This document shows, piece after piece, positions 3,523-29,989 of a stretch of DNA of 30,536 bases. Origin of the DNA: a virus. The DNA is taken from the IMG/VR virus record IMGVR_UViG_3300017751_000128, positions 1-30,536 of that record. One strand, written 5' to 3'. Made by a program: the position numbers and the translations under genes. The notes below the pieces were generated by a model, which did not search any database, had not been told where the DNA came from, and saw only the letters and a program-made list of their open reading frames with translations. The stretch's first letter is position 1, and every line of letters begins with the position of its first letter.

Positions 3523-3523
3523 C

Positions 3524-5948: not shown

Positions 5949-5974
5949 TTATTAACCCCTAATTGTGTTATATG

Positions 5975-5982
5975 TATTTATA
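5975..5982 (-). promoter_or_regulatory. Candidate late promoter TATAAATA
   Basis: This is an exact match to the T4 late promoter consensus TATAAATA, 27 bases before ATG 5948. The TAA inside it is the stop codon of the 613-residue fibre gene, so promoter and stop codon share bases. It lets the third fibre paralogue be transcribed apart from the first two. Confidence 0.6.
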
Positions 5983-7819: not shown

Positions 7820-7820
7820 A

Positions 7821-9902: not shown

Positions 9903-10513
9903 TATTCACTAAATCCTGATAAACTTTGTACACGCACAGTATAGTCAATTTGAATTAACCTATTCAAACTTTTTTGTACTGGGTGGAAAATTACATGTGT
10001 CAACAGTCTACCTTGTCCTGATGGACTATAACTTACTAAGCCTAATTCATCAAATACATATAAACTATTAGCGTCGGTTGCATTATCAACAGCATCTTGT
10101 CCTGATGGTTCACCGTAATCAAGTAAACAACTTACAACAATATCTGTATAATTTGTACCACTTACATGCCTTGATTCGATCTTATTTCTTGCAGGGTCTG
10201 TGTTATTAACACTTCTGTCATCTACAACTTTAATAAATGTTTGGTTATAAAGGCTAGCGTTTGTTCCTGTACTGTTAGGTGTAAGGTATGTAATAATTCC
10301 AGTTGGGTCAATACTAGTTCCTCCGTTACCAAATGTCATTTGATAAACAGTTCCTTGTCCTGCGTTAGCTAAACTTTCTGCAAGTGAAATACTCATATTC
10401 TCGTAGTGAATAGCATTGCGTTTATCGACTATTACTTCGCCTGTATTAGCGTCAGTAATCTTAATATGTCCTTGGAGCATTACTCCGTTTTCTTCTTTTA
10501 TGTTGTTAATCAT
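9902..10513 (-). CDS. Virion structural protein (203 aa) conserved in marine T4-like phages
   Basis: The core reads GHIKITDANTGEVIVDKRNAIHYENMS, FGNGGTSIDPTGIITYL, FDELGLVSYS and HVIFHPVQKSLNR-x-I-x-IDYTVR. I recall this pattern from short cyanomyovirus structural proteins located between the wedge and fibre genes. The regular beta-rich pattern and the IDYTVRVQSLSG end fit a baseplate or fibre-attachment subunit. It does not resemble T4 gp8 (334 residues) in length or motifs. Two starts are possible: ATG 10513, with AGGA 7 bases upstream, or an internal ATG 11 codons later (MLQGHIKI), with GGAG only 2 bases away. The first has the better spacing. A TAAATA box precedes it within the 3' end of the giant gene. 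Confidence 0.75.
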   Translation of the reverse strand: MINNIKEENGVMLQGHIKITDANTGEVIVDKRNAIHYENMSISLAESLANAGQGTVYQMTFGNGGTSIDPTGIITYLTPNSTGTNASLYNQTFIKVVDDRSVNNTDPARNKIESRHVSGTNYTDIVVSCLLDYGEPSGQDAVDNATDANSLYVFDELGLVSYSPSGQGRLLTHVIFHPVQKSLNRLIQIDYTVRVQSLSGFSE

Positions 10514-10525: not shown

Positions 10526-10538
10526 TACTGTATTTATT
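10526..10538 (-). promoter_or_regulatory. Candidate late promoter box before the 203-aa gene
   Basis: The minus strand carries AATAAATACAGTA here, a 13-base sequence also found exactly before gp6. The TAA of TAAATA is the stop codon of the 5,024-codon gene. It ends 18 bases or fewer before ATG 10513. It would let the 203-residue and fibre genes be transcribed without reading through the giant gene. Confidence 0.55.
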
Positions 10539-13500
10539 TGGGTAGCTCCACCTTTTCTGCCTTAAAGAAACGTGCTACCAAACTTTTCGCATCATTAAGT
10601 GAAATTCCTGGATCTGACCAGCGTTTTCCTTGTCTTCTGACAATTTTTATCTTAGCATTCACTGCTGGTGTATTTAACAGAGTTACACTTGCTGTGGTGC
10701 CATCTACTGAAAACTCTGCTGGTGCAGTTTCATCAGCTTCAGGAGAATCTTGATCTAACGCAGGATTAAACATTTGTATTGCATTTTTACGCAATCTTTT
10801 ACCTGCAACGAATATTTCAAACTCATTTACACTTTTTGGTGTAAATCCTAACGGAAATACTGCTGTAGAACCATCACCTGTTTGCTCATCTATAATAGTT
10901 TGATCTGCATAAGGTGCTGTTTGTGTTGGTCCTTGGTTATATACATCACTACCTGCTTCATGTACAGCTGGAGCACCTGTTCCTAGTGTTCCCCTTTGAA
11001 TTTGACGTAAAACATTACCTTGTTTGATCAAGTATTCAATTCTTTCACCATTAATGAACAAAATACCAGGCATACTGCTATTTTTATCAGGTGTGCTAAT
11101 ACTGCTTGCATCATCTAATAAGATTTCCTTGTCTAATGTTAATAGATCTTTAGCAAGTTTAAGCGGAGCAGTATCTCCAAGTCTTTTGTAAATATTTCTA
11201 TTTAAAATATCTTTAAATTGGCTGAATCCAAAATTAGATTGGATTTCACCTTGTGAACTAAATTGTAATACTTCTATAACATCATCATCTGCAAATGACC
11301 CGTTATATTTTACAAAGTTTCTATCATCAGTAAGTTTATAGTCAACACTTGGTGTTTGTAGCACTCCGTTTATTGTTAACCAAACATATTGTGCATCAAT
11401 TGCTGGATATCTTAATTTAATTAGGCCTGCTTTAATATGATTAAATTGTATGTGGTCATCAGTACCTACTGTAATTGTGCTTCTAGCAATAACATCAAAG
11501 TTTTGTCTTTCAAAATCCATACTATCATGTTTATTAAATGTATATACTGTTAATTTTTGTCCATCTGCAGGTGCTGTGTTAAGCAGTAAATTTGCTCCAC
11601 TGTCGACCCATGTTAAATTAGAATTAATAAGTTGCACATCGCCAAACGCATAATCTCCGTCTGTTCTAATATACACTTCTAATATATCACCTTCGCGACC
11701 AATTCCTGGCTCTAAAATAATACTACTGTTTGCAGGACGCAGATTATATTCAACTGCAATAGTAAGTTCTTTGCCATTAAGTAATATTAGTATGTCTTTA
11801 TCTTGGAAACTTCCAATTGGTGCTTGCCATACTTCTAAGAAATATTCTCTCTGTGCAAGTGTACAATTAAATGATTGATTATATCCAGGATTCAATATTG
11901 TATTATCTAGTTTTACAATTACATTATGACTGTTAGGTAATGAGCTATACGGTGTTTTATCTAAAGTAAATATTTTTGTACTTCCGTCGCCTATAAATTC
12001 AGTAGTTTCAATTTTACTAAAACTATCAATAGAAGTATATATTGCATAGCTAATGACACTATTATCAGGTGGTGCACTACCAAATACTATCATTGCCTTT
12101 GGATCTTGATCTGTGCTATCACCACTAGATGTAAGCACTGACTCAACAGCTACACCATTTACTGTTGCATAGTAATCTAAGTCAGTACTATAATGTATTT
12201 TAGTTACAAAAGCATTAGTACTTCCGTCGCCTCTAAATTCACTTTGTTCTATAGCATTTTTTCCGTTGCCACTAATAGAAACAATATTAACATCTTGATT
12301 TGCACTAGGAATAGTTTTGAAAGATACTGTTTTTGTTTTATAGTTTACAGTATACGATGATTGTGATTGAAGCACTTCATTAAGTTTTACAAATAAACCT
12401 TCTTTATTTTGTGGTTGTATTCCAAAATTATAATTGCCTGTAACACCGTCTGTTCTATAAGAATTACTTGAGAGTGTGCTTCCGCCATCTTTAGGTCTAC
12501 TGAATACTCTAATATTAACCGAATCTAGTACTTGTCCAGGAACTTGCTCCTCTGGTCCTTTACTAGTCGTAGGTGATACAAAGTCATCTCCGTCAATTAT
12601 TATTTCTTCTGGATTGATACCTCTTGCTTGTGTAAATGCAAAGTCGCCGCCTGTTAATACAGTATCATAAGACCTTGGATCTGGTAAGAAAGATCCGTCT
12701 GAAGTTGATTTTCTAAATACTAAAACATCATTTAAAGTAGTAGGAATAATTTCTTCATCTAATAAAACTGTATCTGCTAATATGCTATCGTCATCATATA
12801 AAGCAACTCCTGTTTGTCCTGCACCTGTAATACTTTGCATAACTGCATTTATATTAGTAACAGGATTTGCTGTGCCAAAATTAGGATCATCTATTCTCAC
12901 ACCATTTTTATAAACATTGTAAATCATTCCTGAAACTAAAGGACTAGCAAAATTTAAAACCCTTGTGCTATCGTCGCCAATTTGGAATATTTCGTCTTCA
13001 AATGTTGTATCAAAAGTATCATAGGTAGTTGTAAACCATTCGTCTGAGTCCCAACCACTTCCTGAACCAAAGCTGAAACTACTTACTTCTACTCCGCCAT
13101 AGTCTATACCATCTAATAGTTGTGAAAGGTCATTTCCGTACATACCTGATGTAGGATTATAATAAAGATTAATCCTATCTTGTGCTTGTAGTAACTCTGG
13201 TGCTTTGTTGTATGTTATTGTAACAGTTTTATTTTGTGCTAAAGAATTAGTAAATGTAATACGTCCATTACTTCTTGTGAAACCTTTAGTGTCGGTAGTA
13301 ACATTACTAAATGTATACTCACTACGCAATGACTCTAAGCCGTCAACTGTAACAGTAATCTGTGTTGACTTTAACTGCATTGGCCATTTTAAATCAAATA
13401 TTTGTTGATCTAATGTTGATGTAAAAGTTTGCGTTTCATTTAGTGTTTGGAATAGATAAGTTCCTGTAACTCTGTCAAACTTGCATCTTATATGTGCAGT

Positions 13501-16500
13501 TTTAGATTTTCCTTCTCCTAGTATAGCACTTAATCTAGCAACACTTCCGTCATCACTTGTAGTACCTACAATTTGTATTGTAGGAGCTGTTAGGTATCCG
13601 CTACCTGCGTTTGTAACTTTTACACTAGTAACTCTTCCGTTACCAATAAATGCTTCAGCTTTCGCTCCAGTTCCGCCGCCGCCGGAAATTATAATTTTAG
13701 GCGCAACTAAGTATCCGGAACCTGCATCTGCAATACTCAAAGATTTAATTTGATATCCTAAGTTATCTAACCAATGTTTGCTTGGATAATTTTGTAAATC
13801 TGATGTTCCTTCAATAATTTCGCCGTCTATAACTTTAACACTTTGCGGAACAATCTTACCTTCATCTTCGTTATAGTATGGTGCAAGATCAAAATCTGTA
13901 ATTACATTATTTGCAGGATCTATTTTTTCGTAAGAACTTAGATACTCTCTTATCTTAGTTTTATATGGCTTCATTTCTTCTACATAATCTTGGTAACTAG
14001 GTAAACTATCATTTTGGAATGTTACTTTTTGTTCTAGTTCTCCAATGTTATGTTTTGCTTTTACAAAACTTGTTTTGAATGCCCAGTCAACATTAGGTTG
14101 CTCTGTAAATACATATCGTACGCTTGCAAAGAATAATTCATTCCAGTGAACAGCAAGATTATCAACAAATATATCAGCCTTCAAAATTTCTAATATTTTT
14201 CTAAATTCTGTATTTGGCTCAGTATCGTAAAATATTTTATCAAAACTTGCACCATCAAATGCTGTGTTACTTGCATTTACATCATAAAGACTATTTTTAA
14301 ATCCAATAGTTCCGTTTTCTCTACCAATTGTTTCATAAGCTAGTGTATAGTCTTGTGTTTCTAATTCAGCTATCTTTTTAAGTAACAACCATCCGCCAGT
14401 ACCTACATTGTTTATTTTAACAATGTCGCCTATTTGATCATTTAGGGCATATATTTGATAGCTTGCGTCTAATGTATGATTTATAAATGTAAACTGATTA
14501 TATGATATTGCATACCAATCTTTGTATTCCCAATATAAGTTTATATCGTAACTTTGTGTAAAAGTTCTTAGGTACTCTACACCGTCCCATTGATATACTG
14601 CCCATTTGTTATTAATTGTTTCATCATTCTTAACAAGAACTGCAAACTTTCTTACTGTAATAGAAACATTATTTGTATAATCTCTACCACCATTTATAAT
14701 ATCAACGCTAGAAACTTTTCCATTATCATCTATATTAAGTTTTAATTCACAACCTGATCCTTCTTTATCACTTATAACATAAGTTGGTTCATTAATATAT
14801 CCTTGTCCAGGATCATTTATTATAACATTTATAATTACACCGTTTTCAACTTCTAAAGTTAGACTTGCTGGTTTCACTCTAGCAATACTTACAAATCCTA
14901 TCTCACCAAAAGTGTCTGCGGTAGTATCATAAATTCCTGTAGCTAGTGTTGGTTGTGGGTCAAAACCTGTTAATTTAGAAAGATCAAATTCGTCAACAAT
15001 TAAAACTTTGCTTAAGGTATTATTTGTTCTTTCAATAAATTGTTTACGTGCTTCTGTTCTATTTATAAACCAACTCTGTCTTGGTTCGTTCAATGCGCCG
15101 TAACGAAGTTTTATAGGCAAGCCTATGTCTGGTACAGGTCTATCGTTTCGGTCAAATCCTACTAGACTATCGAACCATTTTTGTTCTATTTCTGAATTAG
15201 GTATACTTGTTTCAAGACCGTCACTGATCAATTGGTATTCTAAATGCGTAGGCTGTTCTTGATTATCAATAGTCCACCAATTAAAACTAATCGCAGTATC
15301 TTTATCTTCAATAAATGAAGCACAGTTATATATTGCATATCTATCTGCGCCTAACATTGCAACAAATCTATATCCCATATCAGCAGGTACAGTAATGTAA
15401 TTTATAACATCAGAACAAGTAGTAATTCTATCCGGCACATTTGGCAATGTAGATTTATTAAACACCCAATAGTAATAATAATTTGTAAATGTTTCAGAGT
15501 TTTTATTATATCTTCTTCTTACACTATAAACACTATCGCCATATTTACTTGTGCCACTTACACCTCTTGCAATTCCTGCTTCTGTGCCAACTAAATTATC
15601 CCATTCACTTGGTAAAAGAGTAGATTCTACCCATTCATAAACTTCAACACTGTTTCCTGGAAACAACGTGTTAAAATTTGCTGTTGCTTCACTAATTGTT
15701 CCTTGATGATGATTAATAAATTTTGCACTATCTATATCCCACCATAACTTACCAATCCATTCATCGCTGATATAATTTAAAGTATCAGCTGTAATTGTTG
15801 TATCAGTAGAAACTGTATACCTTGCAGGATCATAACTTGTTTTGAAACTTAGTTCTTGTTCAGCAGGGCCTGCAATTTTTCCTTGTATTGGATCAATATA
15901 ATCTAAGTATGTTAGCAGACTATTAGTATCTTTATTGTATAAGTATAAACCTTTAAATTTGCTTGTATCTGCAGGTAAAATAGGTGTTCTTGTAATTGTC
16001 CAAGATTTCATGTCTGCTGGCTTACGATATTCTGCAACTAATCCTTTATCTAGTATACTACTTTCAGGAACTTGTTGCTTAGGTAATCCAATATAGACAT
16101 GGTTTTTACTTACAAGTAATCTGTTACCAAAATCTTGTGTGTCTAGATTGTATGTAAAGTTCTGACTATAAAGTAATGTGTTGTTAATTGTTTCATATAT
16201 TGTAACAACTCCGCTACCTGTATCAACTGTTTGAAACTTAGAAGAATTATTATCAAATGACGTTGCTGTTGGATTAAGTCCAGATAACGGATCTAAAACA
16301 TATAGCTCATTTTCTTTAAGTTCTTTGTAAGTATCAAAAGATGTAGAACTTACCATAGTTCCGCCTCTAGATGCTACAGCTAAAGTATCTCCATCGAAGT
16401 CAAGTTTTGTACCAAATTGTACATTAGGCTTTGTATCTATAGGACGTAATGTCTGAGAGTATACAAAAGTATCACCACTTTGTATGTAAAGATACACTGC

Positions 16501-19500
16501 TCCGCCATCATCTACTACGTCACTATTGAAAGGTGCTCCAACGGCTATTTTTCTACCATCTGCTGATACTGCTATTGTTGAACCAAAATCTTCTGTTAGG
16601 TTAAAGGGTTCTAATATTTGTGAATATTCATAATTAGTACCGTTTAATCTATATACAACAACTTTTCTGTTTGCTATACTACTATCTATACCTAAAGTTA
16701 CTCCATCTTGTTGGATTTCATATACACTTGTATATACGGAATTAGCAATTAACACTTCGCCATCATTACTAACATCAAAGTCAGAACCAAATGTTTCTAA
16801 GTTGTTTTGTTCTAATGTGCTTTCAACTAGAGAAAAGTTTGTATCATTAGGAACATAACCTAATAAGTCTAATCCACTTGTTTGTGCAGTCCATTGACTT
16901 ACATCGAATGTTCCTGGAATTAAGTTTGTATTTGCTTTGTATACTGTATCTCCAAATCTAGCATATTCATTTTCAAAATAAGTTGCAGAAACACTAAAGT
17001 GACCTCTATAATTTTTCTGCACAGATAAAGCCCAGTCATCTGTAGAATTTTTATTAACAAAATATATTCTGCCTTGATTTTCTTCTGATCCATCTCCTTG
17101 AGCATGAATATAAAGTTTGTAACTATCTGAATCTGGCTGTACAAATCTTAGTTTAGTACCTAACTGTCTGTTATCTGCACTATTTGGAACAGTAAAATAA
17201 TCTATAAGGCTGTATGTTACACCTTTAATTTCGTATATTGCAAAAGTACCTTGTTCAGATAATCCTGTGCTATACCCTTCAGCAACAACAGGAATGTTAT
17301 AAACTCTTGTCCAGTCTAAATTAATAGATGATGGAGGATTAGCACTGTCAGTAATACCGTCTATTGAATAAGATGTATACACCCAATATTCTAAATCTCG
17401 TAAATAGTTTATTCCGCTTTGCACTATAGGAATATTAGTACCTGTATCAATAACAATGATAGGTCCTGAAATAGTATTTTCCATGTGTGCAGAATTAATA
17501 GGCCCCATAGTTCTTGTAGCAGGTCCAAGACCTGGAACATTCTGTACAAAGGTTGCATTTGAATTTACACCAAAATCTGATCCTACAGCCCAGGCGCCGC
17601 TTTTGTTTTTTAAATAAATTTTAGCAGTAGCAAATGCTCTTTCAATATACGCAATAGTCGCTGTAGATCCTGTTGCTGTATCTGTTAGTGTGTCTCCAAT
17701 ATTTGGTATAAAAGGATCACCATTTAAATCAAAGTTTGTTAATCTTACCTCAATATAACCGTTCCATATATCTGCAACTGTATGTTCGGTACTGTTAATA
17801 TATGTTGATGACAATCCTATAGCAGAAGGATCTTGCACTAGTCCATTAACACGGATTGTGTTAAGCCATACTCTAGTTTTATCGCCTATAGAAATACTAT
17901 TACCGTGTGTTAGCGGAGTTCTTAGCCACCACTTACTATCAAGCACTTGTATATTGCTTTGTCCCTGTGTATGTGATAGTATTCCAAACTCAGATGCTCT
18001 TGTTGGATTAGCTAAATTTTGTAATTGTTTAGTATCTAGTATGTTACTAAAGAAAGGATTATTAACAGTATTATTTTCTAATGTAATATCTTGTATCACA
18101 AGATTTGCATTTGTTTCTGTAAGATTGTTACTTGTGAATGTGCTACCTACATTGACATACCACCAACCTGTATGATAGTCGTCTGTGATTTGTAATACTT
18201 CTACATAATCTCCAATTAAAATACCGTCTGCGTAAATTTTTCCTGTGCCTTGAAATGCACCATTTACATCTTTAATGTAAGCTGTCATTTCATTTTCGTT
18301 GTTTGTTCTTCTATATTGTATTGTTGCCCTACAAGTATCTGTGGTAATATCTGTACCAGCATTTGGCACACTTAATGCACTTTGAATATGAATTATGTGT
18401 TGTACTTTATCAACTATAGTATGATTTCCGTTTAACAAAGATTCAGTAATTACACTATCATTATTAAAAGGCTCTATACCTGCTTGTGCAGTAGTTGTAT
18501 ATTTGTTCCATTTTAAAGTTAGAATGTCGCCTGGCTTAGTTCCTTCAAACTGTTCTTTTTCTGCTCTAATTAAAATATGATCTGTATCTGAATTAGCACC
18601 TAATGTATAATCGCCTCTTACAATATATTCAATTTCTGGATATTGTTGTGAAGCAGAATCATAATCATTTTCTTTGGCTTGTTGATTTGATGCATGATTG
18701 TTGTAAGTTTGTAATGCATCTGCTTCTACATCTCTTGCGGCCTTCCATAACTGACTAGAGTATAAAACAATATCACCTTGCGTATATGGTTCATTCTTAT
18801 TATAATCTCCTTTTAGTCTACTTTTAACATTAGAAGCATGTGGTGAACCAATTGCAAGATATTTGCCATCTGGGCTTACTGCAACACTTTGTCCAAAGCC
18901 ACCGTTTGAATCAAATAAGAATGATTGTTCATCTATTTGCTGTAAAAATCCAAAATCTGTATTATCACTTGGTCTTTGATATATGTAAACACTACCATTT
19001 AGATCTTTTGGTGCTGTAATTGCTATGCGGTTGTTATTACTAGTAACACTAAAGGCTGTACCAAAATCCTTTTCAGTGGAATCTAAAACTCCTGCGGCTG
19101 TGTTTACAATGTTAGGTTTTAATTCAAATATTTCTCTATTCTTTAAAACAATCCAGCGACCTGTATCGTCATCATCTACCCATAGTGTGCTATTTTGATT
19201 AGATACATTAAGACTGTCATTTGCTAAAGCAAGTGTTGGAAGTCTAGCCTGCTTGAATTGTGTAATATAACCATTAACTTCTGTAGTGTCATCTGTAGCT
19301 TCAATGTCTTCGCCTTCTGTACTTTCTAAAGTTATTATATTAAGAGATACGCTATCTACTTTATAATACCCGTCGGTAGCATCTGAAATATCATTAATTC
19401 CGATAATATCACCTTTTGCAAAAAATACAGATTTATCAACAGTAATAGTAAATTTGTTAGATTGACTTTCTGTAACTTTAGTAATTCTAAAATCTGTTGG

Positions 19501-22500
19501 TTCTAATTTATAAACATTCCAAGTTTGCTGTGTTTTATCTAAAGCTGTCCAAATATAACTATTCGTAGGAATTGTATTTTGTGTAATTAAATCATCATAT
19601 GTTTGAAGACTAATACCAACGTCGGACGGATTAACATATCCAGCTGTTTTAGTATAACTATTTTCTTCATTGAAGTATTTTGTAGGTAAAGGTTTATGGT
19701 CGTAATCTTTTGGCTTGACATATATTGAATTTCTATCTAACCTATAAATTAAACTTGTATCTTGTGGATTAATTCTATCTACTAATTCTATTTGCTGAGG
19801 CTCTTGCCTATACTTAGATTCATCCAATACAAAATCAAATTGTTCATCTCCTGTAGATGCTCCATAACGTCCTGCACGTACTGCCCATTCTTCAAAAAAT
19901 TCTAAACTATCTTTATTTGCACTTCCTAGCTTATCAAATAGTTTTATTAATACATTCTTAGTACCTTTATCCTGAATAGCACCTTGGAAGAATTTGTACT
20001 GACTTACATCGTCGTTAATAATATTTTCAAGATACTTTCTTTTTTGATATCCTGTCGCATGCTGTGCAAGTTTTTGTTGTTCAATATCAAAGTTATCTGA
20101 ATCTAGATCATAAAAGTCTGAAAATTGTTTTGCTTTGTAATCAAAATTAGGTAAAAGTTTTTGTTCAGGTTTTTCATCTAGTAATACCCAACCTGTATCA
20201 TTAAATAATTGCGTTCCTGTTACATTTGTTGTTGCAACATAAAAATATTGTTTATATTTTATAAGCGACCCTATTTTATAATCTTGGTATGGTAACCATT
20301 CTGTAACAACAGCATCATCAAAAATAAAGCCTGGAATATTATACGATCCGTTCCAGTCGTCTGAACGATATCCTTTTACTTTTATTCTTTCTTGTCTATA
20401 TCCTTGAGCTCTATTATAGATTACATCTCCAAATACAGTTTTATTATCAATAATAACTGCATGCTCGTGTTGAACTAAAGGAATTTTTAAATGATATATT
20501 CCATCATTAGTATTTTTTACAAATATTCCAAAATCGTTAGTATTATCTCTTTCTGTGGTAGCAAAATCTGCTAGTAATCTTTTTCCATCTGCTTTTAATA
20601 AACTATAATCATAAAAATTATCATATATATCATCTACTACATTAAATGGTTTACTAAATTCAATATTTCTAGCACTAGGACTTACAGTAAGTATAGTTCC
20701 GTTATCCCAAGATTGTGTTGTCCAGAATAAAAATTCTTTAGCACTAAGTCTCCAATTTTCAACTTCCTCAATTTCTTTATTGAAGGTATCAAATTTAAAT
20801 CCTGATCTTATAAGATATTCCTGATATCCCATCATAAGATCTACAACTTCTTGTTTTTCACTAAACAATGTACCATATGGCATTTCTTGTACAACAGTTT
20901 CAAAATTAGTAGACAGATAAGCTGTTGCTCCTCCTTCTTCAGGAAGTTCTGGCAACTTTTGATAATTATCTTGATTAAAACTATCACCTGCTGTATGACT
21001 TATCTTAACTCTATAATAGTTGTCTGATACTTCTACAATTTGGCCAGGTTCATAACTTTTTCCTTCTGTCCATGTTAAGAAGTTTTCACTAACTCCGCCA
21101 ACATTGATTACTCTGTCGCTATTTTTCCGTCTTACTGGATAATATTTAAATACAGGATTATCTTTATCATAACCTTTTACAATATATCCAGATGGAGATA
21201 TTTCAATAATCATACCACTGTAAGATAAAACGTCAGTAGGAATACTTTTAGTTAATTGTATTTTATAGTTTTCTTCTGGAACAAAAACATTTCCTTCATT
21301 TGTAGGAGTTCTAGCATCTAGTATAAGTCTAAATTTGGACTTCTGAGTAAATCCTCCAATCTTTGAAGCTAATTTATTTTCTATGTTTTTAATATTTGAT
21401 TTATATTCAGTAAATCTAAGTGTATCATTACCTGCAAGGTAGCCTTGAATATAGTTAATTATACCCGATGTAAACACTCTTTCACTATCAGTTGCACTGT
21501 TAGGAAATTTTAATTTACTTAATTCAATTCTCTTACTTGTATCTCTGTAAATTAATTCTCCCGCACCATTACGTGCTATCCTACTACGATCAAATGCTAA
21601 ACCAAAAAATTGTGCAGGCTGATTCAAAGCCCAAGATATCATTAAACTGAACGGATAGTGAGAACTTCTTCTCCACGCAGTTTCTACAGGTCCTTCATCA
21701 CCAAACTTAAATTGATTACCATATGTTGTAGTAATATTTCCTCTAGAATAACCTGTTCCACTAGGGGGTATTAAATTACCACTTTCGTCAACAGGGATAT
21801 AATTAAAAATATCTGTATTTTTAAATTTGTTTCTGTATGTTACTTTTGAACCTGCTGTGCCTCTAACAACAGCATTAGCCATATCTTGCCAAAGCAACAA
21901 ATTATTACTTGTATAAGGGGCTGTACCATATTCTGTATCAAACCAATCAGGCTTTTCTTTAAAACCTAATATTTCCCATGGATGGCTATGAGGTCTATCT
22001 GTATTGTAAAAGTCTTTGTATATAGCACGCCAAAAACCAGCTAAGGGTTTGTCATAAGGATCAGATGCCATTCCATAATAATATGTGAACCCATCTCCTG
22101 AACGATAAATCGTATTCGATACATAATCCGGTGTGCCTACAGTCTGTAACCAAACATTAAATTCTGATATCATAGTTTTGGAAACTTGTGTTCTAGAAAA
22201 TCCTGTATTTCTATTTTTGCTGTCTACATAATCTACAATATCTAAAATATTTTCGTCATATGTCTGTTTTATATTATTATAAATTCGTTTTTCTATATCT
22301 AGTAGAAGATTATCTCTAAAGTCGCCAAAACATTTCCACAAACTACCATCATGCCCTTGTAACATTGGTTTTGCTTTTGGATATTCTTCTAATAATTGTG
22401 TATCATTAGTTGCATGACTCATTGCACTATTTGGCATATAAAATAATGTATTAGTTCCTGTAAATAAGTGTGTATGAGTTGCCCCAGTTCCGCCGTTTCT

Positions 22501-25500
22501 TATATCCTCTTGAGATGCCGATACTTCATCTGTAAACAAAGGATAGAACCATCCAAGTTTGCCTTTATATGATTTAGTTGTGGTTGTATCTCTACCATAA
22601 ATTTTCCAAGGGCCTGTTACATCCGTAGGTGTTTTTATGTATGTGTCATCTAAAAATATCTCAGGAGTAAATCTAGGATATAATCCTAATTTTGTAGGTG
22701 TAGGAGGTATCCAGCAACCGTCTGTAGTTTTATATTCATAAACATCTAATATGTCTCCTGCATTAGGAGCGTTTAATAAAGTTAAAAATCCATCAGTACT
22801 AATAGTGTAATCTTCATATAATAAAAGTTGTTTTTCATTAAGGTATGCTAGTACAGCTTTTTCAGATAATTGTGTAAAATCTATTCCGCTTGTTAAACTA
22901 AAAATTGTTTGTGATTGGTCTTCAATAATATGACTTACTTTTGTATCTCCACCATGTGCTAACATATCACTAAAGTAAAAAGGATCACTATTAGTTTTAT
23001 TTGCATTAAGTTCTGTTAGAACTTTATCAACATGTATTTTTTCAGTACCTTCAAATCCTAACTCATTTGCTATTCTTAAAAACTCTCTTTTAAATTTAAG
23101 ATATTCTATACCAGAATATTTAATTGCTTCTATAGAATCATAATCTTTATCTGTCAAGTTGTATAAAGCAAGATTGACCGGACCACTGTGTTGTACAAAT
23201 TTCAAACCAAATTTTGATGCATTTCCTAAATCTCTTAAATTACTTGTTCCAGGAAATATGCCTTCAAATCCATTTACATTATCAACAATGCTGTCAACAT
23301 GGTCTAACACTTCCCCTAATGTAAACGTAGTAACATTTTCATTTTGCGGATTTTTTTCAAAGTTTATTGGAAATTCATAATATCCAACACCTTCTCTTTT
23401 AGGTGAACTAGATGTTGTTTTTAAAACTAGTTTGTCATCTGCTGTTAGTTCTTTATCAAATGTTACATAAGCATACCCGTTGACTCTGTTTATTGTGTAG
23501 TCAATCCCATCTCGTTTACGATTACTATTCACATAAACTTTTATGTCTAAATCATTTAAGTCTCCGCTGTTAGTATAAACGTCGACAATAAAGTTATTTG
23601 TCCTTGCGGTAACTGTTGTTTGTTTAACAACAGGCTGTACTGATTTTGTTGGTGCTTTTGTCCAACCAGAAACATTTGTAAACGTTGTTCTATCAGTATA
23701 CTTTCTTAATAATGCAGTGTCTGTGCTAACAGTGAATACATCTGCAATTTCGTCATATTGATAAGTATCTGCTAATAAATTAAAATCAAAAACAATATCA
23801 CCACTATTTTCGATAGTTCTATAACTTAATGGAAATCCTAATTCTGTATCATTAGCACCTGTGCCAACTTTATAACTAAAAATTTTATTTCCTGCAAACG
23901 TGCTTGACTCTAATGTATTAATCTGTGCTCCTGCATCGTTATACATATCAAATAATGGTTGTTGATTTACTTTAGTCTTATCTTGTGTTTGCTTCCATGT
24001 AGTTCCATTATAATAGAAAATTTTTCCTTTAAAATTACTACCTGCTTTAACTAATACTGTTTCATCAATTAACGGAATTGTATCTGTAGTTTCTTTTAAG
24101 GCAAGCTGTAAATTTCCGTTTTGATTTATAAAATTAACCTCGTATATTTTTCCTGCAACAAAACTGTCTGGGTCTGCTGTGAATAACACACGCATGCCTG
24201 TAACTAATTCTACTCCATCTACAAAGTAACCAACTTGTCCTTCAATATTAGAGAACACATCTGTTGTAACTGTATCAACTAGGTCTACTGATGTCTTTGA
24301 TTGTGTTCCAAAATTGTAAAGTTTTAATCCTGCGTCAAACTCGATAATGGGCCTTGTTGCTCTATATGTTTGGTCTAAAACTGCTGACATATTATTAATT
24401 TCAGCAATATTTTCTATTACACTTTTATGTGTCCATTTATTATATCTTGCCCATTGATTTCCATCCTTGGATGCTCTATTAATTACAATATAGTCTTTTA
24501 GAGAAGCATAAGAAGTAGCATCGCCAAATGGCAGTGACGCAAATCCTTGTGCGTCAAACTCAGTAGATATATCTGACAAATAATCAGCAGTAATAACTAA
24601 GTCTTCTTCAGAAATTAATTTAATTGAATCTCCGACACCTTCGACATACCAATTACCTTCTCCGTATTTGGCTGGTGTAATTTCTCCGTAAAATTTTATC
24701 TTCATGCCATTAGTTAAACTATAACCATTTTGCATAGTGTAAGTTTTTTTACCAATTATATCTGATCCTACATCAAGTTGTGTATTATCTCTAATATCTT
24801 TGATAACAATAAGTCCTGTAGTTTCAATATCGTTATCGTTTGTGTAGTAAAGAAGATCAGGAGCTTCAAGATCTATTTCCCAAGTTATAGACCCTTGTTC
24901 AACTTTCTGTTGGCTTACTCCTTCATTATAAAGGTTTGTATCATCTTCAATACTAGTATTTGTTCTAATACTAAAGGGCATATCAACTGTGTCAATATCA
25001 AAGTTATATGTTTGTCCTCTATATAATGTTAATGTTGGATTACTTACTTTGTTCTCTTCGCTGAAAATATAAGAATTATTATCTACGTTGTCCTGCATCT
25101 TTACTGCAAAAGTACTTGTAATATTCCTTGCAGTGCCATATACTGGAATTTCATCTGGTCCTGCTGGAAGCCAATAATATTCTCTAAAGTTTACAAACTT
25201 GTCCCAATTGATGTGAGGATCCCAAGCGTAATATTCTTGCGAACTATATTTGCTGTGATCTGCATTATCAGCATTTCTAATTTTACTAGAGTTTACATAA
25301 TCTCTATAATCTCTGTAAAATTTAATATTATCCAAACCGTCTGTGATTGTAGTAACAGGTTCTAGCTGATAATTTTCTCTAGTTTTTGTTATATCTGAAA
25401 CATAGTTATCAGATGCTTTGAATGCTTTGGCATCTCTACGACCAATGAATCCATCAACCTTTTCTACAACACCCGGTTGCATTAATTGGTCTAATGTACT

Positions 25501-25608
25501 ACTTAGGAATTTTTTATTTGCTGTGCTTCTAAAATACCTCGGTAGTAGGTCTGATGTTTTTCTTTTGCTATTTCCATTTGTTGGAATTGGGCTTTCATCT
25601 TGTGCCAT
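10534..25608 (-). CDS. Giant multidomain baseplate/tail protein (5,024 aa) in the gp7 position
   Basis: One frame of 15,075 bases fills half the window with no stop or frameshift. It starts in a TAATG overlap with gp6, where T4 has gp7 (1,032 residues). Visible parts, with approximate residues: a Tyr/Trp-rich N-terminus with LLPRYFRSTANKKFLSSTLDQ and DPHINWDKFVNFREYYWLP (1-150); a cupredoxin-like domain (190-270); helical wedge-like regions such as NIINDDVSQYKFFQGAIQDKG (near 1,860); FG-GAP-like propeller blades (near 2,181, 2,234, 2,937, 3,006, 3,061 and 3,160); four W/Y modules resembling CBM5/12 (near 1,513, 1,771, 2,266, 2,875); GSGY repeats (3,590-3,655 and 3,951-4,030); and GDGST modules in the C-terminal 1,000. 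It has no signal peptide or membrane segment. I infer a wedge protein enlarged with surface-exposed beta modules. I recall very large structural proteins in this position in marine T4-like phages, but cannot confirm the length is typical. Confidence 0.8.
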   Translation of the reverse strand: MAQDESPIPTNGNSKRKTSDLLPRYFRSTANKKFLSSTLDQLMQPGVVEKVDGFIGRRDAKAFKASDNYVSDITKTRENYQLEPVTTITDGLDNIKFYRDYRDYVNSSKIRNADNADHSKYSSQEYYAWDPHINWDKFVNFREYYWLPAGPDEIPVYGTARNITSTFAVKMQDNVDNNSYIFSEENKVSNPTLTLYRGQTYNFDIDTVDMPFSIRTNTSIEDDTNLYNEGVSQQKVEQGSITWEIDLEAPDLLYYTNDNDIETTGLIVIKDIRDNTQLDVGSDIIGKKTYTMQNGYSLTNGMKIKFYGEITPAKYGEGNWYVEGVGDSIKLISEEDLVITADYLSDISTEFDAQGFASLPFGDATSYASLKDYIVINRASKDGNQWARYNKWTHKSVIENIAEINNMSAVLDQTYRATRPIIEFDAGLKLYNFGTQSKTSVDLVDTVTTDVFSNIEGQVGYFVDGVELVTGMRVLFTADPDSFVAGKIYEVNFINQNGNLQLALKETTDTIPLIDETVLVKAGSNFKGKIFYYNGTTWKQTQDKTKVNQQPLFDMYNDAGAQINTLESSTFAGNKIFSYKVGTGANDTELGFPLSYRTIENSGDIVFDFNLLADTYQYDEIADVFTVSTDTALLRKYTDRTTFTNVSGWTKAPTKSVQPVVKQTTVTARTNNFIVDVYTNSGDLNDLDIKVYVNSNRKRDGIDYTINRVNGYAYVTFDKELTADDKLVLKTTSSSPKREGVGYYEFPINFEKNPQNENVTTFTLGEVLDHVDSIVDNVNGFEGIFPGTSNLRDLGNASKFGLKFVQHSGPVNLALYNLTDKDYDSIEAIKYSGIEYLKFKREFLRIANELGFEGTEKIHVDKVLTELNANKTNSDPFYFSDMLAHGGDTKVSHIIEDQSQTIFSLTSGIDFTQLSEKAVLAYLNEKQLLLYEDYTISTDGFLTLLNAPNAGDILDVYEYKTTDGCWIPPTPTKLGLYPRFTPEIFLDDTYIKTPTDVTGPWKIYGRDTTTTKSYKGKLGWFYPLFTDEVSASQEDIRNGGTGATHTHLFTGTNTLFYMPNSAMSHATNDTQLLEEYPKAKPMLQGHDGSLWKCFGDFRDNLLLDIEKRIYNNIKQTYDENILDIVDYVDSKNRNTGFSRTQVSKTMISEFNVWLQTVGTPDYVSNTIYRSGDGFTYYYGMASDPYDKPLAGFWRAIYKDFYNTDRPHSHPWEILGFKEKPDWFDTEYGTAPYTSNNLLLWQDMANAVVRGTAGSKVTYRNKFKNTDIFNYIPVDESGNLIPPSGTGYSRGNITTTYGNQFKFGDEGPVETAWRRSSHYPFSLMISWALNQPAQFFGLAFDRSRIARNGAGELIYRDTSKRIELSKLKFPNSATDSERVFTSGIINYIQGYLAGNDTLRFTEYKSNIKNIENKLASKIGGFTQKSKFRLILDARTPTNEGNVFVPEENYKIQLTKSIPTDVLSYSGMIIEISPSGYIVKGYDKDNPVFKYYPVRRKNSDRVINVGGVSENFLTWTEGKSYEPGQIVEVSDNYYRVKISHTAGDSFNQDNYQKLPELPEEGGATAYLSTNFETVVQEMPYGTLFSEKQEVVDLMMGYQEYLIRSGFKFDTFNKEIEEVENWRLSAKEFLFWTTQSWDNGTILTVSPSARNIEFSKPFNVVDDIYDNFYDYSLLKADGKRLLADFATTERDNTNDFGIFVKNTNDGIYHLKIPLVQHEHAVIIDNKTVFGDVIYNRAQGYRQERIKVKGYRSDDWNGSYNIPGFIFDDAVVTEWLPYQDYKIGSLIKYKQYFYVATTNVTGTQLFNDTGWVLLDEKPEQKLLPNFDYKAKQFSDFYDLDSDNFDIEQQKLAQHATGYQKRKYLENIINDDVSQYKFFQGAIQDKGTKNVLIKLFDKLGSANKDSLEFFEEWAVRAGRYGASTGDEQFDFVLDESKYRQEPQQIELVDRINPQDTSLIYRLDRNSIYVKPKDYDHKPLPTKYFNEENSYTKTAGYVNPSDVGISLQTYDDLITQNTIPTNSYIWTALDKTQQTWNVYKLEPTDFRITKVTESQSNKFTITVDKSVFFAKGDIIGINDISDATDGYYKVDSVSLNIITLESTEGEDIEATDDTTEVNGYITQFKQARLPTLALANDSLNVSNQNSTLWVDDDDTGRWIVLKNREIFELKPNIVNTAAGVLDSTEKDFGTAFSVTSNNNRIAITAPKDLNGSVYIYQRPSDNTDFGFLQQIDEQSFLFDSNGGFGQSVAVSPDGKYLAIGSPHASNVKSRLKGDYNKNEPYTQGDIVLYSSQLWKAARDVEADALQTYNNHASNQQAKENDYDSASQQYPEIEYIVRGDYTLGANSDTDHILIRAEKEQFEGTKPGDILTLKWNKYTTTAQAGIEPFNNDSVITESLLNGNHTIVDKVQHIIHIQSALSVPNAGTDITTDTCRATIQYRRTNNENEMTAYIKDVNGAFQGTGKIYADGILIGDYVEVLQITDDYHTGWWYVNVGSTFTSNNLTETNANLVIQDITLENNTVNNPFFSNILDTKQLQNLANPTRASEFGILSHTQGQSNIQVLDSKWWLRTPLTHGNSISIGDKTRVWLNTIRVNGLVQDPSAIGLSSTYINSTEHTVADIWNGYIEVRLTNFDLNGDPFIPNIGDTLTDTATGSTATIAYIERAFATAKIYLKNKSGAWAVGSDFGVNSNATFVQNVPGLGPATRTMGPINSAHMENTISGPIIVIDTGTNIPIVQSGINYLRDLEYWVYTSYSIDGITDSANPPSSINLDWTRVYNIPVVAEGYSTGLSEQGTFAIYEIKGVTYSLIDYFTVPNSADNRQLGTKLRFVQPDSDSYKLYIHAQGDGSEENQGRIYFVNKNSTDDWALSVQKNYRGHFSVSATYFENEYARFGDTVYKANTNLIPGTFDVSQWTAQTSGLDLLGYVPNDTNFSLVESTLEQNNLETFGSDFDVSNDGEVLIANSVYTSVYEIQQDGVTLGIDSSIANRKVVVYRLNGTNYEYSQILEPFNLTEDFGSTIAVSADGRKIAVGAPFNSDVVDDGGAVYLYIQSGDTFVYSQTLRPIDTKPNVQFGTKLDFDGDTLAVASRGGTMVSSTSFDTYKELKENELYVLDPLSGLNPTATSFDNNSSKFQTVDTGSGVVTIYETINNTLLYSQNFTYNLDTQDFGNRLLVSKNHVYIGLPKQQVPESSILDKGLVAEYRKPADMKSWTITRTPILPADTSKFKGLYLYNKDTNSLLTYLDYIDPIQGKIAGPAEQELSFKTSYDPARYTVSTDTTITADTLNYISDEWIGKLWWDIDSAKFINHHQGTISEATANFNTLFPGNSVEVYEWVESTLLPSEWDNLVGTEAGIARGVSGTSKYGDSVYSVRRRYNKNSETFTNYYYYWVFNKSTLPNVPDRITTCSDVINYITVPADMGYRFVAMLGADRYAIYNCASFIEDKDTAISFNWWTIDNQEQPTHLEYQLISDGLETSIPNSEIEQKWFDSLVGFDRNDRPVPDIGLPIKLRYGALNEPRQSWFINRTEARKQFIERTNNTLSKVLIVDEFDLSKLTGFDPQPTLATGIYDTTADTFGEIGFVSIARVKPASLTLEVENGVIINVIINDPGQGYINEPTYVISDKEGSGCELKLNIDDNGKVSSVDIINGGRDYTNNVSITVRKFAVLVKNDETINNKWAVYQWDGVEYLRTFTQSYDINLYWEYKDWYAISYNQFTFINHTLDASYQIYALNDQIGDIVKINNVGTGGWLLLKKIAELETQDYTLAYETIGRENGTIGFKNSLYDVNASNTAFDGASFDKIFYDTEPNTEFRKILEILKADIFVDNLAVHWNELFFASVRYVFTEQPNVDWAFKTSFVKAKHNIGELEQKVTFQNDSLPSYQDYVEEMKPYKTKIREYLSSYEKIDPANNVITDFDLAPYYNEDEGKIVPQSVKVIDGEIIEGTSDLQNYPSKHWLDNLGYQIKSLSIADAGSGYLVAPKIIISGGGGTGAKAEAFIGNGRVTSVKVTNAGSGYLTAPTIQIVGTTSDDGSVARLSAILGEGKSKTAHIRCKFDRVTGTYLFQTLNETQTFTSTLDQQIFDLKWPMQLKSTQITVTVDGLESLRSEYTFSNVTTDTKGFTRSNGRITFTNSLAQNKTVTITYNKAPELLQAQDRINLYYNPTSGMYGNDLSQLLDGIDYGGVEVSSFSFGSGSGWDSDEWFTTTYDTFDTTFEDEIFQIGDDSTRVLNFASPLVSGMIYNVYKNGVRIDDPNFGTANPVTNINAVMQSITGAGQTGVALYDDDSILADTVLLDEEIIPTTLNDVLVFRKSTSDGSFLPDPRSYDTVLTGGDFAFTQARGINPEEIIIDGDDFVSPTTSKGPEEQVPGQVLDSVNIRVFSRPKDGGSTLSSNSYRTDGVTGNYNFGIQPQNKEGLFVKLNEVLQSQSSYTVNYKTKTVSFKTIPSANQDVNIVSISGNGKNAIEQSEFRGDGSTNAFVTKIHYSTDLDYYATVNGVAVESVLTSSGDSTDQDPKAMIVFGSAPPDNSVISYAIYTSIDSFSKIETTEFIGDGSTKIFTLDKTPYSSLPNSHNVIVKLDNTILNPGYNQSFNCTLAQREYFLEVWQAPIGSFQDKDILILLNGKELTIAVEYNLRPANSSIILEPGIGREGDILEVYIRTDGDYAFGDVQLINSNLTWVDSGANLLLNTAPADGQKLTVYTFNKHDSMDFERQNFDVIARSTITVGTDDHIQFNHIKAGLIKLRYPAIDAQYVWLTINGVLQTPSVDYKLTDDRNFVKYNGSFADDDVIEVLQFSSQGEIQSNFGFSQFKDILNRNIYKRLGDTAPLKLAKDLLTLDKEILLDDASSISTPDKNSSMPGILFINGERIEYLIKQGNVLRQIQRGTLGTGAPAVHEAGSDVYNQGPTQTAPYADQTIIDEQTGDGSTAVFPLGFTPKSVNEFEIFVAGKRLRKNAIQMFNPALDQDSPEADETAPAEFSVDGTTASVTLLNTPAVNAKIKIVRRQGKRWSDPGISLNDAKSLVARFFKAEKVELPK
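11978..12240 (-). repeat. Two 23-base near-identical repeats exactly 240 bases apart
   Basis: The segments 11978-12000 and 12218-12240 differ at one base and are offset by exactly 240 bases (80 codons). They encode EF(I/R)GDGST at the head of two consecutive beta modules of the giant protein. A diverged third module (TGDGSTAVF) starts near 10890. The spacing shows tandem duplication of an 80-residue unit. Confidence 0.7.
13561..13745 (-). repeat. GSGY repeat pair in the giant protein
   Basis: Two adjacent units encode ADAGSGYLVAPKIIISGGGG and TNAGSGYLTAPTIQIVG, separated by an AKAEAFIGNGRVTSVKV linker. This unit recurs in diverged form at 14655-14825. I recall such GSGY...P.I.I repeats in many large marine phage structural proteins, probably as short beta-solenoid or beta-sandwich stalk units. 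Confidence 0.65.
14655..14825 (-). repeat. Diverged GSGY-type repeat pair in the giant protein
   Basis: NDPGQGYINEPTYVISDKEG, then DNGKVSSVDIINGG, then RDYTNNVSITV follow the same pattern as the pair at 13561-13745: an (S/G)GY turn, a Pro-strand, an NGKV-turn and a second G-x-x-Y turn. They lie about 360 residues before the clearer pair. Confidence 0.5.
16080..16800 (-). repeat. FG-GAP-like propeller blades (second group, four)
   Basis: Four units in the giant protein carry FGS/FGT/FGN followed by a strand and a turn: TFGSDFDVSNDGEVLIAN, EDFGSTIAVSADGRKIAVGAP, VQFGTKLDFDGDTLAVAS and QDFGNRLLVSKNHVYIGLP. Each is followed by a VY-x-Y or LYVL strand. This is the pattern of integrin-type FG-GAP beta-propeller repeats. 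Confidence 0.6.
18830..19070 (-). repeat. FG-GAP-like propeller blades (first group, two)
   Basis: Two units read DFGTAFSVTSNNNRIAITAP, followed by GSVYIYQR, and GGFGQSVAVSPDGKYLAIGSP. They match the four blades at 16080-16800 but lie about 670 residues earlier in the protein. The six may form one propeller interrupted by a large insertion. Confidence 0.6.
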
Positions 25609-28600
25609 TAGTATCCATAGCCTCCACCGCCGCCGCCGGAGCTACCTCCGCCGCCACTTGATCCGCCACCGCCCGAGCTACTTGAGCTACTTGAGCTACT
25701 TGAACTACTTGAGCTTGACGTATTAGTTGTTGTGCTACTAGTACTTGTACTTGTAGTTGTTAATGCTTGACTTTTTATACCTGTATTAGTTGTGCCTGTT
25801 GATGTAATAACATTTCCTGAGGCTTGTATTCTTGATGCTGTTACAGAGTCAATAATTTCTACATCATCAACTGTTGCATCGTTTATAAAGATTTCATTAT
25901 TTTCGGCTTTAACTTCATACAAGCTACCAAAGCCCTGTGTAGCTTGTTTTGGTACAAGTAAAATATTAACTGCATCTGGAGAAATACTATTCATAATAAA
26001 AGTTGCTAATTCAGTAAAGTGGAAACTATCACCAAAGTTCCAATTAGCTAAACCAAAGAATCTATTTACTGCACTGATTACATTAGTTTTTAACTCATTA
26101 CCGTTAACTACTTCTCCTGAATTAGGAACAATTTTAAAAGTTGCTTGTAGATTATCTTGTGCATGTACACCAAACAACGGCTTATAAGTTACAGGATGAT
26201 AAATTACTTCATCACTAATAGATTTATATTCATTTATTTGTCCGCCATAGTTCTGAAATAATTCATCTGAGCTAGGAGGTAATGGCATTGTACCTATTAC
26301 ACCTTTAAGATAGTTTCTAAAGTTTACATCGTAAGATCTAGTTAACATATAGATATCAATAATATTACTTGCACTAGGATCGATCCTGTTGCTTTGATCT
26401 GCACTATGTACATACTGAAATTTTAAATCTGAGCGTCCTACATGTGCTTTATAATCTGCAGACACAGTAAGTAAATTATTATTCAATATTTTAAAATTAT
26501 CATTATCTGTTACATAAAAAATTTGTCCGTCGCTATATTGACTATATGCACCTATCTCTATTTCTGTCTTAACTACATTAATAGAACTTCCTTGATCATA
26601 AAAATTATATTTGCTAAATCCTTGATCTGATGATTCTTTCTTTAAGAAAATATATTTTGTATCTGGATTTGTTTGTGGTGCTACAACATTTATAAAAATA
26701 TCTGGATCGTCTACACTACCATCGTCATTCAAATCAAAAAAGCTAACTTCTACTTTTTTACTATTAACATATCCGTCTGCATTCCTAAATTCTTTAACAA
26801 TCTCCCAATTGATATCATTGTTAAATGCATCAAGGGAATCAGGCTTAGTATTAAAATTCATTATTGCTACTTTATCTTTTACTAACTGTCCTGTTTGTGA
26901 ATCGTAAATTTTTGACTGTCCGTCAAAGTAAAAACTCAACTCTTTATCACTTTCAAATATATAACGTAATCCTCTATTAGTAACAGTATATTTTTCGCCA
27001 TTTGTTTCAAACAATATTAACCAACTAGAGTCAAGTTGATTATTTGTAACGTCACCTGTTTTACCATTACTAAAAACATCTACTGTATTAAGGTTTTCGT
27101 TAATAATTACTCGCCAATTTCTGTTAACCTGATCATATCTTAAAGCAAAAGTTTTATATGCAAATACTTGGTCAATAATTTGTGCCCTTACATCAGTTGA
27201 AATGTCTTTTACTATTTTAGGTTTGACTTCTTCTAAAACACTATTTTCAGGTAAAATATCATTGAACACAAGTGGGCCTTCTCCAGTTACGCTATCTAAA
27301 GTTGTTCCTGCTCCTTTTGCACTTATAACTTTGACCCATTTATAACTACTAGCACCTTTTGCTTTGCCATCACTAGTTAATAATCCTTTGCCAATAAAAA
27401 AGAAGCCTGCGGGCGGTTTAAATTTTAATAAAGCACCTGCCTCTACATACTTTAATGAACCTCCTGTAAAAGTACCTACTTGAAACGGAACATCATTTAA
27501 ATTCTGTAATAGTCCTGTAGAACTATTTGTTGTTTTTGTAGACTGTTTAAATCGTGCATTTAGGTCACTAACAATAATTTTAGCATAATTTCCAAAGTAG
27601 TAATTGCTTATTGCTCTGCTTTTAATTATAGGTAAAATTGTATTTTCTATATTCCCTTCAATGTCAGTTTGTGTTGCAAACGTAAATGAAGTTTTATTTT
27701 CATACTGCTCTTGATACAGTACGCCATCTGATCCATATAAATTTGTACTAGAGTATTTTCCAGTAACATCTTTTAAATCAAAGTATCTGCTAATACCACT
27801 TGTTGTCCTATTAGTAGATTTAACTTTTACAATCTCTTGATTTGTTGTAAGAGGAACAATATTATAATCTTCGCCGGTGACCATTCTATTTTGTGTATAG
27901 TATGTTTGCGGAGCATTTGATCTAATACTAGCTGTAGATTCGCTTGTAGTTGCATTGTTAACTGCTTCTTTAAGTTCAAGTCCTAGAGTAAGTGTTTCGG
28001 TTGTTCCTGCTTTGCTTACGTATGGTAAACTTACTGTTATATTTGTAAGTTCAGCAGGTGCTATATTAAGTGTTTTATTTGCACTTGTTCTATAATAAAT
28101 CCTAAATGAACCAGTAGGTAAATTTCCAAATGTTCCGTCAGCAAAAACTAAACTAATTTCATCATTGCCTCTAGTTTGCACTACATAATAATCTTTAATC
28201 TTTTTAATTAAACTGTTGTAAATTGCGTTGTTACCTTCAGTTGAATTTACTTGTGTCCAAATTTTATCTGCAAAACCTTGTGTGTCTAACCCGTACAACC
28301 AAACATCTGTATCGTTAATATTTTGTGCCTCAATAGCAATCTTTTGATTAGCTGATGGACTTGCAACATTAAATTCATTAGATTGCATTTTTCCTTGTCT
28401 AAAATGTAAAAAATATCCGGAGTTAGAACTGTTAGCGCCACGCCCGTCTTCTCTATACAAAAATGCTAAACTAGTTCCTGGAACAGGATTTTCTTCAATA
28501 ATATTATTCAACTCTGTATCAATACCTGTTGATACAACTTCAAACTGCGTAGGTGAGCCGTTCACTGCTTTTGTGAATCCAAATATAGGAACATCATCTT

Positions 28601-29240: not shown

Positions 29241-29675
29241 TCACACCAATCCAACATTTTTATCAAATTGTAGCCTTAAACTTTCGCTAATATTATAATC
29301 TAAGTACATTAACGTACATTCAATTTGTAATCCTGATTCGAATTCAGTTACTTGTATTGCTGTAGCTCTAGTTCTAGGATCATAATTCACAATATTTGTT
29401 ACATTTGTTGTAATGGCATCTTTAAGTTCTGTAGTTAAAGGTTCAAACAATGCGTCCCATATAATACAACCAAACGTTGGGTCGGATAGTTTTTCTCCTT
29501 GTCGAATATTAAGGTGATTAAGTAGATTTTGCTTAATTAATGAAATATCAAACTGCTGGAACGTGTTGTTCTCTGGATTGACTGTGCTGAATCCCCTATA
29601 GGCTTTTTGCTTAATAGGTGGGGCTTTTTCTCTTTTAGGAGTTACTTTAATTGTTTTGTATAAATCTTGCGCCAT
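29241..29675 (-). CDS. gp25: Baseplate wedge protein gp25
   Basis: This 144-residue protein belongs to the GPW/gp25 family. The core runs STVNPENNTFQQFDISLIKQNLLNHL, IRQGEKLSDPTFGCIIWDALFEPLT, and a C-terminal strand set VNYDPRTRATAIQVTEFESG / LQIECTLMYLDYNISESLRL. The EKLSDPTFGC-x-(I/L)WD segment is the hallmark of the family. The protein sits at the inner baseplate, where it holds the gp6-gp7 wedge and contacts sheath initiation; its relatives occur in P2-type phages (gpW) and type VI secretion (TssE). T4 gp25 has 132 residues, so the length is normal. It follows the PAAR gene by 17 bases and precedes gp6, an order seen in cyanomyoviruses rather than in T4 itself. Confidence 0.92.
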   Translation of the reverse strand: MAQDLYKTIKVTPKREKAPPIKQKAYRGFSTVNPENNTFQQFDISLIKQNLLNHLNIRQGEKLSDPTFGCIIWDALFEPLTTELKDAITTNVTNIVNYDPRTRATAIQVTEFESGLQIECTLMYLDYNISESLRLQFDKNVGLV

Positions 29676-29692: not shown

Positions 29693-29989
29693 CTAAGGAC
29701 CAGCAAAAACTGTATCGCTTCCTGTTGAAACACTTGTACAAGCTGTTATAGCATCTCCTACTCGTCCTACTCCTTTACCATTAGCAAACACTTCCGTACT
29801 GCCTGTTGTAATAGGCTTTGCATGTGTACCGCACGGTGCTGGTGGAACATCATGAGATGTGTTGTTATCGTCTTGTCGAGATACTCCTGTTCCGTTTACA
29901 AATACATCACCACTACACTCATCTCTTTTTGGTGTTGAGCAATGTGGAACATCTTCGTCTACGCTATCACCCCTACATACTGCCGGCAC
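29693..29989 (-). CDS. PAAR-like spike-tip protein
   Basis: The protein has 98 residues from GTG 29989, giving MPAVCRGDSVDED, the usual MPAV-x-R start of phage PAAR proteins. GGAG 7 bases upstream supports this over a TTG six bases further up. Two half-repeats of the type VFVNGTGVSRQDD and VFANGKGVGRVGDA alternate with Cys/His segments (PHCSTPKRDEC, PPAPCGTHAKP, TACTS), consistent with the metal-binding PAAR fold. PAAR proteins cap the central spike of contractile tails; T4 gp5.4 is the equivalent. The start lies 17 bases inside the preceding 67-residue gene. With the lysozyme-like protein upstream it marks the baseplate hub and spike module. Confidence 0.88.
   Translation of the reverse strand: MPAVCRGDSVDEDVPHCSTPKRDECSGDVFVNGTGVSRQDDNNTSHDVPPAPCGTHAKPITTGSTEVFANGKGVGRVGDAITACTSVSTGSDTVFAGP

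Follow-up and report, generated by a model that had tools for sequence, protein, structure and literature searches.

A 5,024-residue protein in the gp7 slot of a marine RaK2/Atu_ph07-like myophage and its probable role as a baseplate-wedge organiser

In phage T4, the baseplate wedge gene gp6 is followed by gp7, which encodes a protein of 1,032 aa and whose start overlaps gp6. The viral DNA analysed here (IMG/VR record IMGVR_UViG_3300017751_000128, 30,536 nt, referred to as the window) carries in the same slot a single gene of 15 kb. Is its product an enlarged gp7, another wedge protein that took over the position, or an appendage that happens to be encoded there? A preliminary description of the window considered it a wedge protein that had grown by the addition of surface modules, which might make up a large external structure of the baseplate or an additional fibre-like appendage.

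The giant gene and its surroundings

On the minus strand, 10534..25608 forms one uninterrupted frame that starts with ATG, encodes 5,024 aa and occupies 49% of the window, confirming the intact 15-kb single frame of the preliminary description, which had put it at half of the DNA. The computed mass of the protein is 563.6 kDa and its pI 4.7. Codon-position composition is even from one end of the ORF to the other, and the ORF listing contains no frame of more than 105 aa wholly inside the gene. The stop of gp6 and the start of the giant are joined as a TAATG overlap, likewise as described before. Two contigs from other samples encode the same protein, with 100% identity over both slices searched, and the ORF is therefore no assembly artefact; over the whole gene, one of the two, contig L007, differs in 10 of 15,075 nt. 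The genes around the giant, given in the direction of reading, are:

29693..29995, minus strand: PAAR spike-tip protein (PHROG, Pfam)
29241..29675, minus strand: gp25 baseplate wedge / sheath initiator, GPW_gp25 (PHROG, Pfam)
25608..29177, minus strand: gp6 baseplate wedge subunit, 1,189 aa (phrog_10646, phrog_219)
10534..25608, minus strand: giant gp7-slot protein, phrog_10938 member (ORF, PHROG matches, relatives, dN/dS)
9902..10513, minus strand: 203-aa protein, phrog_11259 (PHROG)
4458..9902, minus strand: three tandem fibre genes, 693, 613 and 496 aa (shared N-terminal domain)

The order PAAR - gp25 - gp6 - giant - 203-aa protein - fibres supports the gp7 position assigned to the giant earlier. 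The identity of gp6 is clear-cut (E 2.8e-281, PHROG profile). Its C-terminus (25608-25755) forms a Ser/Gly low-complexity tail with a tandem repeat at 25675-25715; the length and make-up of this tail vary among relatives, many of which end in GYGY, GYSY or similar. The three fibre proteins have a common N-terminal domain of about 90 aa (41-54% identity) and differ behind it, one carrying a tail collar domain and another a Peptidase_G2-type match below the cut-off. They are likely to be receptor-binding fibres. Near the left end of the window, at 1535-3152, two adjacent genes may be glycosyltransferase-like; only the first of them has a family match (phrog_1903, unknown function).

Relatives in cultured and marine phages

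By its sequence, the giant belongs to phrog_10938, a "virion structural protein" family of jumbo myophages. Three slices match the family with E values of 1e-129, 1e-100 and 6e-81, matches were obtained for 31/31 core segments, and tblastn with the giant identified matches in 89-91 phage records. Members of phrog_10938 are located behind gp6 in Atu_ph07 (gp180, 4,449 aa), Phosso (4,555 aa), PA5oct (gp355, 3,857 aa), PBECO4 (gp538, 3,333 aa) and RaK2 (gp465, 3,326 aa), all of which exhibit the order small wedge gene - gp6 - giant. Adjacency to gp6 is not universal, because the SCTP-2 giant (gp140, 3,807 aa) lies near 127.8-139.2 kb and the gp6 match at 231-235 kb, about 90 kb apart. On the other side, the giant is followed by the 203-aa protein and by fibres with the shared N-terminus in Phosso, Atu_ph07, PA5oct and SCTP-2. 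Judged by its description, ORF361 of RsoM2USA, a 2,541-aa "structural protein" beside wedge genes (PMC8504454), probably belongs with these giants as well.

Presence in virions is supported for two relatives by mass spectrometry. In phAPEC6, gp245 was detected with 17 unique peptides, beside the baseplate wedge protein gp244; the gp245 mass of 381.88 kDa is predicted from sequence, not observed (PMC7247149, Table 1). The PA5oct record marks gp355 as ESI-MS/MS-detected. The tail map of phAPEC6 is at about 25 Å (PMC7247149), and literature searches found no RaK2-like phage baseplate solved at residue resolution.

A search of IMG/VR with a conserved block of the protein yielded at least 591 related stretches, of which 80 loci were kept, 39 with a complete ORF. 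All 39 complete ORFs are open end to end (4,452-5,343 aa), and the interruption in related phages for which they were inspected was found in none; in the core blocks, they share about 44-82% identity with the window protein. In nearly all complete relatives, the giant is located directly behind a gp6 of mostly 1,140-1,220 aa, and the TAATG junction is kept by most, a few having TAAATG or a short gap. In one locus (L130, 1279-6567), the ORF preceding the giant is 1,763 aa long instead of the usual ~1,180, a possible expansion or fusion of gp6. Comparison of the window giant with four relatives (NG86) gave dN values of ~0.12-0.15 and dS values of ~1.1-1.2, dN being far below dS in all four blocks with an approximately tenfold synonymous excess. 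The giant is thus under purifying selection along its full length and, as hundreds of relatives carry it too, is a real, conserved tail-baseplate protein.

The size and position of the window giant are not new. Giants in the gp7 slot, some of them larger, are already known from cyanomyophages: gp7 of P-SSM2 has 5,195 aa and gp101 of Syn9 6,076 aa. Since gp7 of P-SSM4 reaches 7,312 aa (L163 3145-25083; the largest gp7-slot frame among those compared), the size of the window protein is not exceptional. For pelagimyophages and cyanomyophages, gp7 was argued to be missing, with VrlC in its place (PMC7029224). In HTVC008M, gp055 (L164 4436-7486), annotated "head closure Hc2" and situated directly after gp6, has a match to phrog_17744, the family of the gp7 core, with an E value of 5.8e-22, which is at odds with the published absence of gp7 there (PMC7029224).

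Conserved cores and a marine-clade module

Alignment with the cultured jumbo relatives and 35 divergent marine members revealed two conserved cores, residues 1-2000 and 3200-3960, on either side of a variable centre (2000-3200). From the N- to the C-terminus, the following parts can be distinguished:

19609..25608, minus strand: conserved N-terminal core, residues 1-2000 (alignment; AF2)
20944..21081, minus strand: CBM5/12 (type-3 chitin-binding)-like domain inside the core, residues ~1510-1555 (profile, Foldseek, Pfam)
19801..20175, minus strand: most conserved segment, residues 1812-1936, candidate gp7/gpI-like wedge core (alignment)
16009..19086, minus strand: FG-GAP beta-propeller, residues ~2175-3200 (Pfam and blade motifs)
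17359..18711, minus strand: variable insertion between propeller blades 2 and 3, residues ~2300-2750 (member comparison)
13729..16008, minus strand: second conserved core, residues 3201-3960 (alignment; AF2)
10534..13728, minus strand: C-terminal array of beta modules, residues 3961-5024 (PHROG, motifs, AF2, Foldseek)

The N-terminal core is common to RaK2, PBECO4, PA5oct, SCTP-2, Atu_ph07 and Phosso, with residues 1001-1100 being lineage-specific, and its part from 1080 to 1960 was modelled by AF2 with a mean pLDDT of 79.8. Conservation is highest at residues 1801-1900 (68% identity). The segment 1812-1936 carries an invariant F..G....KG and E, with a KG[T/S] core, and has low pLDDT, much of the candidate core lying at 32-58. 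In the second core, a helical block at 3801-3900 shows 61% identity; the AF2 model of residues 3195-4210 has a mean pLDDT of 76.4.

The variable centre is taken up by the propeller, which comes with CBM5/12 modules; its blades lie near residues 2182, 2239, 2940, 3008, 3065 and 3160, part of them called by Pfam and the remainder being motif matches. The window FG-GAP_2 match scores 38.1 bits (Pfam curated cut-off 23), and FG-GAP is present in 32/33 marine members (Pfam, E <= 0.01). An insertion of about 450 aa comes and goes within the propeller, and 10 shorter members mostly do without residues 2300-2750. A further CBM5/12-like domain, that in the conserved core near 1510-1555, matches chitinase and deacetylase ChBDs by profile (E 0.001-0.003) and ChBD-type domains by Foldseek with a probability of 1.00 but an E value of only ~0.1. 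In the window, CBM_5_12 falls below the Pfam curated cut-off (19.8 vs 26.2 bits, E 7.9e-4); across the marine members it was identified in 23/33 (Pfam, E <= 0.01; best 1.6e-13). FG-GAP was not detected in the corresponding parts of the Atu_ph07, Phosso, PA5oct, SCTP-2 and RaK2 giants. The marine-clade propeller/CBM module is the distinctive feature of the window protein.

The C-terminal 1,064 residues consist largely of beta modules with AGSGY and GDGST motifs. These modules resemble tail fibre families (PHROG), and structure prediction, which reaches residue 4210 only, gave weak fold matches to the N-terminus of TSP4 and to short chains from portal-tail complexes. Residues 4001-5024 gave no tblastn match in the phage collection. 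Two further elements of the preliminary description are borne out by this anatomy: the modular, mostly beta-rich build is supported by Pfam and the AF2 models, and growth by the addition of surface modules is visible in the propeller and CBM5/12 region of the marine clade, which was not detected in the cultured jumbo relatives, and in the variable insertion of ~450 aa.

A proposed wedge role, its alternatives and known baseplates

Descent from T4 gp7, the wedge protein whose slot the preliminary description assigned to the giant, found no support when parts of the giant were compared with T4 gp7 by profile and by Foldseek, as it had proposed. The T4 gp7 profile has no significant match in any part of the giant, nor does a sliding-window scan with a core profile of T4 and cyanophage gp7. 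Profile-profile comparison with the gp7 core gave a probability of at most 4% at the candidate core and of up to 8% for unrelated scan windows. Sequence and profile searches showed no similarity of the protein to the gp7 families phrog_964, phrog_17744 and PF23786. No gp7 family is among the Pfam matches of the KG core, PF23786 not being listed, and its matches to PF05396 and ILEI are below the cut-off. A search for PF12604 gave no match; PF09684 (Tail_P2_I) matches in none of 11 records and is uninformative as a bridge, as T4 itself fails it. With AF2, the surrounding domains were modelled well but the KG core poorly (much of it at pLDDT 32-58), and among the 50 PDB matches listed by Foldseek for each of the models 1080-1960 and 3195-4210, there is no recognisable T4 gp7. 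Matches of the first model to phage Milano (8fqc_Q1, P1) were discarded, with rmsd values of 12-15 Å and a length that fits a tail spike N-terminus, not a wedge. Those of the second model to 9f4a_AT/AS and 5iv5_B, chains of ~648 residues from T4-like baseplates that are probably gp6, were not accepted either, being too weak with E values of 0.009-0.18 and an rmsd of 18 Å.

Nevertheless, the giant is the protein that follows gp6, and searches with phrog_17744 and the T4-type profile identified no other gp7 in six large, possibly incomplete, related contigs and no T4-type gp7 in Atu_ph07, PA5oct, SCTP-2 and RaK2. It is therefore proposed that the giant fills the gp7 slot and, in a marine myophage of the RaK2/Atu_ph07 type, probably serves as the outer organiser of the baseplate wedge. 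This role is favoured by the co-linearity with gp25 and gp6, the membership in phrog_10938, the two conserved cores and the presence of relatives in virions. Against it stand the facts that neither T4 gp7 nor any gpI-type protein is matched significantly in sequence or fold, that the AF2 confidence of the KG core is low and that the SCTP-2 giant is located apart from gp6.

In known baseplates, a gp7-type protein completes the (gp6)2-gp7 wedge (PMC10457771, PMC10811340), and in T4, XM1 and Milano the outer parts of this chain carry the receptor-binding proteins (PMC3004832, PMC10457771, PMC10811340). By analogy with T4 and other phages, from which copy number, contacts and surface exposure are taken over, probably six copies would be present per virion, one with each gp6 dimer, amounting to ~3.4 MDa in total. 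The cores at 1-2000 and 3200-3960 would hold the gp6 dimer and the wedge together, while the C-terminal beta array and the 203-aa protein may carry the trimeric fibres. The propeller/CBM module might face outward and touch glycans of the host surface, as suggested by its domain types and its variability. Were such binding to occur, the point of contact between the cell and a baseplate with a 560-kDa subunit would be explained, and uncultured marine phages would have a host-range determinant open to testing. Through this family, a marine phage lineage that is widespread (at least 591 IMG/VR stretches) is linked to the RaK2-like baseplate.

The giant may be a genuine homologue of T4 gp7 that has diverged very far, its KG core at 1812-1936 corresponding to the gp7/gpI core and the rest having been added around it; this refines the wedge-organiser explanation instead of excluding it and is a tentative possibility, at somewhat less than even chances. 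This segment is more conserved than any other in the protein, position and gp6 partner agree, the best local match of the segment to the profile of T4 and cyanophage gp7 coincides with the KG[T/I] motif (P 0.01 for the single comparison), and the T4-only profile selects the same place. However, the probability is only 4%, equal or better scores occur in other windows of the giant, Tail_P2_I and PF23786 provide no link, and the predicted fold is of low confidence. Rather speculative, and doubtful on present evidence, is the idea that an independently evolved, non-homologous protein took the gp7 role in the wedge of RaK2-like and marine jumbo phages, the marine branch adding host binding by insertion of an FG-GAP propeller whose carbohydrate-binding modules can be swapped; cells would then be recognised by the wedge as well as by the fibres.

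Two other readings depart from the wedge organiser. The giant could be a separate tail-fibre or appendage protein that merely lies in the operon after gp6, another protein doing the job of gp7. It has no detectable gp7 homology, its C-terminal modules resemble tail fibre families, the same-slot protein of Syn9 (6,076 aa) is annotated "putative fiber", VrlC was argued to stand in for a missing gp7 in pelagimyophages and cyanomyophages (PMC7029224), and the SCTP-2 giant is not beside gp6. Yet the coupling to gp6 is tight in nearly all relatives, an alternative gp7 was not found in the large related contigs, fibre genes with a shared N-terminal domain exist separately downstream, and the same-slot giants of cyanophages do carry a gp7 core, making this explanation unlikely. 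Far less probable still is a polyprotein that is cut post-translationally into several baseplate and fibre proteins. A protein built of modules, with conserved blocks set apart from variable ones, would suit it, and processing into smaller chains is compatible with the phAPEC6 table, as the published masses are predicted from sequence. On the other hand, the scanned slices contain no Pfam protease match, with slices and weak matches leaving room for one, and reports of cleavage were not found in the literature consulted.

As a putative wedge organiser, the window protein resembles T4 gp7 in the order PAAR - gp6 - gp7, in the overlap with gp6 and in its presumed role. In contrast, gp25 is located elsewhere in T4, and T4 gp7, present in six copies (PDB 5IV5), is five times shorter and has no detectable sequence or fold similarity to the giant. 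With the giants of cyanomyophages it shares the single frame directly after gp25 and gp6 and some C-terminal modules that match the same kind of PHROGs. The cyanomyophage proteins carry a T4-type gp7 core (phrog_17744), whereas the window family has no match to it; consequently, giant wedge-slot proteins exist in at least two lineages, only one of which has a detectable gp7 core. Compared with the jumbo giants of phrog_10938, the window protein is longer, differs in its C-terminal array and possesses the FG-GAP propeller and CBM5/12-like modules, neither of which was detected in the giants of Atu_ph07, Phosso, PA5oct, SCTP-2 and RaK2. It shares with the jumbo giants the conserved cores, at roughly 25-35% identity, with most of them the slot after gp6, and with four of them the 203-aa neighbour and the fibre N-termini.
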